DNA of 52,800 nucleotides, from positions 1 to 52,800 of the forward strand of contig CAINDR010000021.1 in assembly GCA_903847415.1 (NCBI GenBank). The letters run 5' to 3'. The stretch's first letter is position 1, and each line of letters begins with the position of its first letter. A model generated the notes under the pieces. The model was not told the origin of the DNA and did no database searches. It worked only from the letters and a program-made list of their open reading frames with translations. Below are positions 21,734 through 23,646 of this stretch, piece by piece. Source of the stretch: Candidatus Falkowiibacteriota bacterium. Lineage in GTDB: Bacteria > Patescibacteriota > Patescibacteriia > Patescibacteriales > UBA12465. Made by a program: the position numbers and the translations under genes.

Positions 21734-22783
21734 ATGAATAATAAAAACAGTAGAATTAAAGAGTTTATTTATAAACATGTATTTGAGCATCCGTCGGATA
21801 TTGCTCTGCTTGTTTCTAATGAATTTGGTTTTTCCCGCCAGAATGCTTTGCGTTATATTTCTAGAGAAGTAAGAGATGGGAAAATTATCAAAGTGGGCAG
21901 AACAAATTCAACCCGTTATTTTGAAGTTGGTGGCAAGAAGATTGAGTTTAATTGTGAGATAAATAAAAATCTTGCAGAAGATCAGGTTTGGTCAAAATAC
22001 ATTAAACCGATGACTTCTGGTTTTAATGATAATATCAAAAGAATTATTGCCTATGGTTTTACGGAAATTTATAACAATGCAATTGATCATTCAGGAGGAA
22101 CAATCATCAATACAAACGTTGAGATAAAAAATAATAACATAGAAATAAGTATTATTGATAACGGAATAGGGATATTTAAAAAAATTCACCAGGCACTCAA
22201 ATTAGATTCTGTTAGAGAGGCGATTCTTCATCTTTCTAAAGGAAAATTCACCACTGACCCTTCAAGGCATTCGGGGGAGGGAATATTCTTTACCTCAAGA
22301 ATATTCACGAAGTTTTCTATTCTTTCTGGTGACCTATTCTATAGTTTTGAGAATCAAGAATGGCTTCTATCTCATGAAAAAGAGGAAAGATTCGGTGACG
22401 GCACTTTAATCAAAATGGTTCTAAACCTCGACGCAACCCACACGTCAAAAGATATTATGGATAAATATGCCGACGTGGATTTTGATATTGGTTTTTGGAA
22501 AACTATTGTTGCGGTTTCATTGAGTTCCAGTCCCGATGACCCACATGTATCAAGGTCGCAAGCAAAAAGACTAATGATGGGATTGGATAAATTTAAAACT
22601 GTTGTCTTGGACTTCAAGAACGTATCTTCAGTTGGACAGGCCTTTGTTGATGAGATATTTAGAGTTTTTAGAAATAATTTTCCTGAAATTTCCATTGAGT
22701 ACATAAATGCCAATCAGGAAGTAGATGAAATGATTAAAAGAGGGTTGACACAAAATAAATTAAGTGGTAATTTTGGGACATAA
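21734..22783 (+). CDS. wHTH - GHKL ATPase - STAS-like (DUF4325) regulator
   Basis: 349 residues. Residues about 1-75 form a winged helix (ALLVSNEFGFSRQNALRYIS). About 80-220 is a histidine-kinase-like ATPase with N-box EIYNNAIDHSGG, G1 IIDNGIGI and G2-like RHSGEGIFFT; no phospho-accepting His domain is present. About 270-349 is a STAS-like DUF4325 domain (FKTVVLDFKNVSSVGQAFVD). The layout resembles anti-sigma-factor/antagonist switches fused in one chain with DNA binding. Its partner is not encoded next to it. Alone under its own promoter. Confidence 0.8.
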   Translation: MNNKNSRIKEFIYKHVFEHPSDIALLVSNEFGFSRQNALRYISREVRDGKIIKVGRTNSTRYFEVGGKKIEFNCEINKNLAEDQVWSKYIKPMTSGFNDNIKRIIAYGFTEIYNNAIDHSGGTIINTNVEIKNNNIEISIIDNGIGIFKKIHQALKLDSVREAILHLSKGKFTTDPSRHSGEGIFFTSRIFTKFSILSGDLFYSFENQEWLLSHEKEERFGDGTLIKMVLNLDATHTSKDIMDKYADVDFDIGFWKTIVAVSLSSSPDDPHVSRSQAKRLMMGLDKFKTVVLDFKNVSSVGQAFVDEIFRVFRNNFPEISIEYINANQEVDEMIKRGLTQNKLSGNFGT

Positions 22784-22812: not shown

Positions 22813-22873
22813 CTTTGTTATAGCTGAAAGTAGTCTAATTTTCAAGGATTAGTGATTTTCAGCTGTAGCAAAG
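22813..22873 (+). ncRNA. long structured RNA hairpin of unknown function
   Basis: CTTTGTTATAGCTGAAA (22813-22829) pairs over 17 positions with TTTCAGCTGTAGCAAAG (22857-22873), two of them G-U wobbles. Inside the loop CTAAT pairs with ATTAG. No T-run follows, so it is not a standard terminator. It lies 42 bases before the 22916 gene. The wobble pairs suggest that it acts as RNA. Confidence 0.45.
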
Positions 22874-22915
22874 TCAACAAAGATTTGAGAACGGCAAACC
22901 AAAAAAAATACTGTC

Positions 22916-23539
22916 ATGAGTAACGGAAAAGAAGAATCTGTTTTAGACGGAAAAGAAAAATTAACCGACGAGCAACTGGGTAAGTTGCATCGGAAATTCA
23001 GTGAAGTTATTAAAAGAATTAATGAGGGGGTAATAAATTATGAAGATGCCAAGGATGTCCTGCAATTCATTATTGTTGAGGGGAAATCTTCTGATTTTCT
23101 GAAAGTAATAAACAAGACCCATGAAATTCGTGAGATTGAATACCTCATCGATTGTAATGCTCGCCCTTTTATCCCACAAGGATCGACGGTGGAAGTACAC
23201 AAAAAAGGCGGAATGTGGAAATGGAATCCAAATATCTCCTTCTATCTGTCCAAAAAGCAGAAAAAAGGTGGATATTCCAAAGGGAATGATTTACGCAAAG
23301 AACTGGAAAATCAACCAGTGCTTAATGCTAATGTCTTGGATTACCTGCTTGCTCATCCAGAATTAATTCCAGAATCTTGGAAAAGCAAAATAACTTTTTT
23401 CTCGGGCACTATTTATCGCAATTCCGGCAGTAATCTCTTTGTTCGTTACCTCTACTGGCATGGCTTTCGCTGGGACTGGGGCAACGGCTGGCTCGGTTAC
23501 AATTTTAACAGCGATTACCAGGCCGCCCTCGCAAGTTAG
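22916..23539 (+). CDS. hypothetical protein with DGR-target-like C-terminus
   Basis: 207 residues. The N-terminal half is helical and charged (LTDEQLGKLHRKFSEVIKRI); PESWKSKITFFSGTIYR then leads to an aromatic tail YLYWHGFRWDWGNGWLG ending AALAS. This PESWK...GTIYR...VRYLYW...WLG...A type recurs in candidate-phyla proteins and looks like a C-type-lectin-like ligand-binding fold. The tail is much richer in G+C than the region and is full of NNC codons, as expected when AAC codons of a template are mutagenised. No reverse transcriptase or template repeat is visible in the window. Confidence 0.6.
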   Translation: MSNGKEESVLDGKEKLTDEQLGKLHRKFSEVIKRINEGVINYEDAKDVLQFIIVEGKSSDFLKVINKTHEIREIEYLIDCNARPFIPQGSTVEVHKKGGMWKWNPNISFYLSKKQKKGGYSKGNDLRKELENQPVLNANVLDYLLAHPELIPESWKSKITFFSGTIYRNSGSNLFVRYLYWHGFRWDWGNGWLGYNFNSDYQAALAS

Positions 23540-23609
23540 TACTTAGTTCTTTGGCCCTTAGCTTTTTAGCCATCGGTCTTTTACCCTTTGTCCTTTGCGC
23601 TTTGTCCTC

Positions 23610-23646
23610 AAGCTCAGTTTACTTTTAGTAAATTGAGCTTATTTTT
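23610..23646 (+). terminator. intrinsic terminator
   Basis: AAGCTCAGTTTAC (23610-23622) pairs with GTAAATTGAGCTT (23628-23640), one mismatch, then ATTTTTT. The 70 bases before it are an odd run of CCTTTG/CTTTTT-like units. Confidence 0.75.

Follow-up and report, generated by a model that had tools for sequence, protein, structure and literature searches.

A probable stand-alone target gene of a diversity-generating retroelement in a Patescibacteria genome, with a leader hairpin and a periodic post-VR tract common to several target families

CPR bacteria are rich in diversity-generating retroelements (DGRs), whose targets there are without an assigned function. The cellular DGR clade 2 of Roux et al. 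(2021; PMC8144416) is restricted to Patescibacteria/CPR, and its targets carry no recognisable TM or conserved domains. The relatives of the gene described here are alike in having a reverse transcriptase (RT), an Avd-like ORF, a template (TR) and adenine-specific mutagenesis, whereas the copy in the stretch of DNA analysed here (52.8 kb in full, referred to as the window) comes without an assembled cassette. The DGR of Bordetella phage BPP-1 (Mtd) also resembles the window locus in that the variable region (VR) lies at the 3′ end of the gene, closes in a GC-rich, IMH-like end and differs there from the TR. According to PMC3240598, BPP-1 requires, immediately downstream of the VR, a short hairpin/cruciform that is GC-rich and has a 4-nt loop. 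A further likeness is to the variable proteins of C-type lectin fold (Mtd, TvpA, AvpA and TaqVP; PMC5006420, PMC6328139), with their variable, aromatic-rich C-terminal strands.

The window gene (22916..23539, + strand) is an ORF of 207 aa, proposed as a DGR variable protein in a preliminary description which rested on the composition of its tail. The last 41 codons have a GC content of 0.53, against 0.37 in the gene body and 0.35 in the window, a value reached by just 0.05% of the 123-nt segments of the contig. NNC codons make up 21 of these 41 codons (0.51) compared with 28 of 166 in the body, a count matched by none of 1301 segments of 41 codons from other ORFs of the same contig, and 0.15% of these segments reach the tail's count of Y/W/N/D/G/S/H/F/C/R residues. 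The tail is therefore rich in Y/W/N/D/G, in NNC codons and in GC within an AT-rich contig, as had been claimed, and the statement that the window holds neither RT nor template also stood, neither a further copy of the VR nor an A-biased repeat being found in the 52.8 kb. Upstream of the VR lies the conserved core domain of the target family (23132..23416, +; about residues 73–167, ...NANVLDYLLAHPELIPESWK...FFxGTIYR), delimited by alignments A1, A4 and A5 and modelled by AlphaFold with a pLDDT of 96. Downstream of the gene, a terminator-like hairpin followed by a T-run (AAGCTCAGTTTACTTTTAGTAAATTGAGCTT and then ATTTTTT; 23610..23641, +) was read directly from the sequence. The neighbouring gene at 21734..22783 (+), which lies between a ydjM-like gene and the target gene, encodes a regulator-like protein with Pfam matches to HATPase and DUF4325. 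It was considered as a DGR partner and set aside, with no homologues found near 52 loci of the target family.

Homologues of the window protein were found in 17 of 39 genomes of the same taxonomic family, and a profile scan of GTDB genomes gave 52 target-family loci, nearly all of them in Patescibacteria. The nearest named relative belongs to a Candidatus Falkowbacteria MAG, in keeping with the CPR origin that had been suggested. A DGR RT or RT remnant adjoins the target at 13 of the 52 loci, most of these 13 also having an Avd-like ORF, and the order target, TR, Avd (antisense) and RT was seen at about a dozen or more loci of the family. The RTs linked to the family carry GLPLGNLTSQ and YADD, and on translation the TRs give Asn-rich versions of the VR. 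For 12 VR/TR pairs, the mismatches lying at template A were 23/23, 9/9, 17/20, 18/20, 18/23, 17/22, 20/20, 13/13, 9/9, 19/19, 12/14 and 12/12. Differences confined in this way almost wholly to adenines are the defining mark of a DGR, and the family bears it, in agreement with what is stated for DGR clade 2 (PMC8144416). The window protein is homologous to these RT-linked proteins, and because its homologues adjoin Avd, RT and TR, with mismatches almost all at template adenines, it is identified as a DGR variable protein, which upholds the central proposal of the preliminary description.

A number of other members of the family should also be mentioned. In one genome (G027:C11; L032:3664-4548) the match to the window protein turned out to be noncoding, an Asn-rich version of the C-terminus, RDSNGNLYVRYLNWNSSKWNWNYNWLDNDFNSDNPAALA, with an Avd-like ORF and a truncated DGR RT next to it. 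This DGR remnant adjoins a 23S rRNA gene; its TR and Avd are intact, its RT consists of the C-terminal third only, and its target gene is gone, yet a CTTNG tract persists upstream of the TR. Target-family genes were also detected on MAG contigs labelled Alphaproteobacteria (L039, labelled Micavibrio, and L079, labelled Methylocapsa), which are probably mis-binned Patescibacteria contigs or cases of recent transfer. Three secreted relatives (L020, L021 and L022), with a signal-peptide-like N-terminus, have a fixed, non-variable C-terminus.

The VR of the window copy was delimited by a codon-for-codon alignment with the G027 template and spans 40 codons or 120 nt at the 3′ end of the gene (23417..23536, +). 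At codon positions 1 and 2, changes were found at 16 of 31 template A positions against 9 of 49 non-A positions (Fisher p=0.002), a bias which is weaker than in VR/TR pairs from within one genome because the G027 template is that of another species, so that template divergence is mixed in. Template AAY codons are read in the window VR as GGC, AAT, TAC, CAT, GAC, GGC, GGC, TAC, AAC and TAC. The VR closes in an IMH-like, GC-rich block, GCCGCCCTCGCAAGT (23522..23536, +). The GCAAGT that precedes the stop codon is the VR form in most members of the family, while the TRs have GCAACT, GCAATT or similar at this place, a difference which from the sequences looks like that between IMH and IMH*.

Upstream of the gene, a hairpin was predicted in the 5′ leader (22814..22872, +), where the covariance model constructed for it (R1) scored 43.5 bits with an E value of 1.4e-6 in 1.05 Mb. 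The hairpin is about 52 nt long with a stem of 22 bp, and compensatory changes were seen at 18 of the 22 pairs; 93% of the cells of the alignment are paired, and none of 500 shuffles reached any of the measures. All 42 of the sense-strand matches examined within the 1.05 Mb sit 1–138 nt upstream of DGR target genes, a figure to be read with the fact that R1 was built from 24 sequences taken upstream of targets and that most of the searched loci had been fetched for holding one. The matches include unrelated target families outside the model (L113, L121, L122, L123, L124, L118, L006 and L084 at 1703), and the hairpin is also present at L037, L040, L041, L045, L046, L113, L121 and others. Within the 39 whole genomes, most further matches precede intact or decayed genes of target type, the exceptions being one on contig C32 of the window's own genome, one in G009 and one at G017:688160. 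The hairpin on C32 (16625-16675; L226) lies upstream of a 127-aa protein without VR features, which indicates that genes other than DGR targets can also have the leader. No Rfam 15 family matched the leader in the window or at the eight related loci tested, and a single miRNA match within the window was dismissed as being at chance level. The hairpin is followed by a conserved motif, GATTTGAGAACGGCA (AAAATC..GATT..; 22882..22896, +), which occurs three times in the 39 genomes of the family and in each case precedes a gene of the target family. The passages of PMC3240598 consulted do not describe a leader hairpin for BPP-1.

A second element was found directly after the VR, in the form of a tract of six CTTNG motifs with a period of about 7.4 nt (23542..23604, +), which is the sole such cluster in the window. 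Within 75 nt after the VR stop codon, Patescibacteria DGR targets have a mean of 2.64 CTTNG motifs, against a mean of 0.19 at the ends of 760 other genes (p=2e-33). The tract is pyrimidine-rich, and the period was obtained by autocorrelation over 37 non-redundant loci, with z values of 8.8 and 6.6 at lags 7 and 8, 5.6 at lag 15 and 2.4 at lags 21–22. In the window and in those regions of its own genome and of the cassettes that were examined, every cluster of at least four CTTNG within 60 nt is placed directly at the end of a DGR VR gene, the genes belonging to several unrelated target families. The tract was seen in the 3′ flanks of family loci L037–L087 and of cassettes L113–L131, and none was found in the more distant viral DGRs L154–L192.

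In this respect the window differs from BPP-1, since the inverted-repeat potential following its VR is no higher than that of control gene ends. The inverted-repeat score after the window VR had a z of −0.4, the test thus giving no hairpin/cruciform of BPP-1 type directly after it, and inverted repeats beyond those of shuffles (p<0.05) occurred at 4 of 28 target loci compared with 22 of 80 control gene ends. The idea that the tract is in general a hairpin or cruciform with T-T loops was dropped on the basis of this ungapped test, although some tracts, such as those of L048 and L076, do fold well. A strict heptad, CTTDGNNCTTDGNNCTTDG, was discarded as a target finder, as it gave three matches in the 39 genomes, one of them by chance in a coding region.

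With regard to the protein fold, the AlphaFold models are confident, with a pLDDT of 89 for the full protein and 96 for a 135-aa core comprising the core and VR domain. Searches of PDB structures with both models gave no match below an E value of 0.7, and no Pfam family was found for the protein, which in these two points is unlike the C-type-lectin-fold variable proteins. C-type lectins do recur, solely among the insignificant matches (best lectin E 1.5, TM about 0.4, prob 0.16). The lectin-like domain put forward earlier thus found no significant support, the weak matches of the models being compatible with a divergent lectin-like fold.

The genome to which the window belongs is assembled in 64 contigs of 927,772 bases in total and is 95.6% complete. 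It contains two RTs only, on contigs C58 (L001) and C15 (L002), which match group II maturase and UG26/UG17 profiles and have QGVPL where DGR RTs have LPLGN. Against the DGR-RT profile they give E values of about 1e-13, compared with 1e-100 to 1e-174 for most true DGR RTs of the relatives, and with LPLGNLTSQ lacking and no A-biased repeat nearby they were ruled out as DGR RTs. Both stand alone and have distant homologues in sister genomes. No DGR-type RT and no match for the four-helix bundle Avd were detected in this 95.6%-complete assembly, and searches for a TR elsewhere in it were negative at both the DNA and the protein level. The genome-wide search for a DGR RT and a template that had been recommended found neither, and the suggestion that such an element acts on the gene in trans was not borne out in what is assembled. 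The absence of a DGR RT, which is one half of what had been named as counting against a DGR target, is outweighed by the evidence from the family and touches current activity only.

Two further paralogs of the target family are present in this genome (C60 and C20), both with decayed tails. A second orphan protein of VR type, from an unrelated target family (..NANRSGGGSWLYTSYVSPGSKWNRSLGFAFVVSQV), is encoded on contig C19 (L229:1032-1652, −). Its TR type sits in the cassette of G023 and no TR was found on its own 3.4-kb contig; the gene is likewise preceded by the leader hairpin, and its tract is weaker. At the site corresponding to the window locus, G001 and G023 have mrdA-ydjM-hrcA with no target gene and lack the HATPase/DUF4325 gene, and G002 has a target-family member with a decayed tail in the position preceding hrcA. 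In G001 an intact target is found in the galU region, where the C60 paralog also sits. The differing sites suggest that the target gene moves or is gained and lost. The intact copies (window and G001) have a tail GC of 0.53–0.60, a GCAAGT end and 4–6 CTTNG motifs, compared with a tail GC of 0.35–0.42 and no CTTNG motif in the decayed copies C60, C20 and G002; live-type tail GC, GCAAGT end and CTTNG motifs are all missing from these three and from G001 C9a. This contrast speaks for a window VR that, until recently, was either being rewritten or under selection to stay rewritable.

The reading preferred here, to which a probability of roughly 0.9 is given, is that the window gene encodes a DGR variable protein and is a stand-alone recipient site, most likely diversified recently by a cassette that is unassembled or was recently lost. 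In the mechanism proposed for the family, a DGR RT with its Avd partner would copy the template RNA, adenines would be miscopied during this copying, and the cDNA would replace the C-terminal 40-codon VR, with priming at its conserved, IMH-like 3′ end. The expected outcome is a fixed scaffold that presents Y/W/D/N/G/S/H/R residues as a binding surface. The window copy would represent a complete recipient site, consisting of leader hairpin, scaffold, VR, VR-type 3′ end and post-VR tract, and the cognate cassette, if present, would be expected to hold a TR of the form ...VRYLNWN...WNWNYNWLDNDFN..., Avd and a GLPLGNLTSQ RT. That the gene is instead no DGR target, its tail being an ordinary fast-evolving, aromatic-rich C-terminus which is GC-rich for other reasons, is considered very improbable: it would fit with the lack of a cassette in the assembled genome, but it is contradicted by the A-only substitutions of orthologous C-termini beside RT and TR, and the codon-level alignment to TRs and the sharing of leader, VR end and tract with the family also speak against it.

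For the cassette itself, it is possible, at somewhat under even odds, that the cell harbours a complete one, either on a mobile element or on a contig that was not assembled or not binned, and that this cassette continues to rewrite the window VR in trans. All visible features of the recipient site are intact, the assembly lacks about 4.4% of the genome, TR/VR repeats and hypervariation disrupt assemblies, and G002, of the same genus, has a DGR-RT fragment at a contig edge. However, G001 (same genus, 88% complete) has an intact VR and likewise gave neither DGR RT nor Avd, no DGR RT was found in G008 and G034 (97–98% complete), which both have the target, and the TR of the full cassette in G023 serves another target family. 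These cases suggest that orphan targets are usual in this taxonomic family, and they favour a reading that comes close to an even chance, namely that, after loss of the cassette, the VR protein has either been retained as a fixed binder or begun to decay. The decayed paralogs C60 and C20 in the same genome point in this direction, as does G027, which shows the converse with TR, Avd and a truncated RT and no target. Unlike the decayed copies, the window copy retains its live-type codon composition, VR end and tract, so that any loss of the cassette must be recent.

Remote targets escape surveys based on cassettes, and Roux et al. (2021) state that their own approach would miss them (PMC8144416). 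The leader hairpin and the post-VR tract, of which no mention was found in a literature search, are considered to be a new, previously unlisted part, common to several unrelated target families including that of the window gene. A wider idea, put forward here as a doubtful one, is that Patescibacteria DGR targets form a regulon-like set with a shared cis-code (the leader of about 52 nt and the CTTNG tract), in which the tract would replace the phage-type hairpin for target recognition, the leader would couple expression across families, and orphans would keep the code and be rewritable once a cassette enters. The two elements provide sequence handles for finding targets without a nearby RT, and they make it testable how target recognition by a DGR works when there is no phage-type hairpin, and whether orphaned variable proteins represent fossils or stocks open to reactivation.
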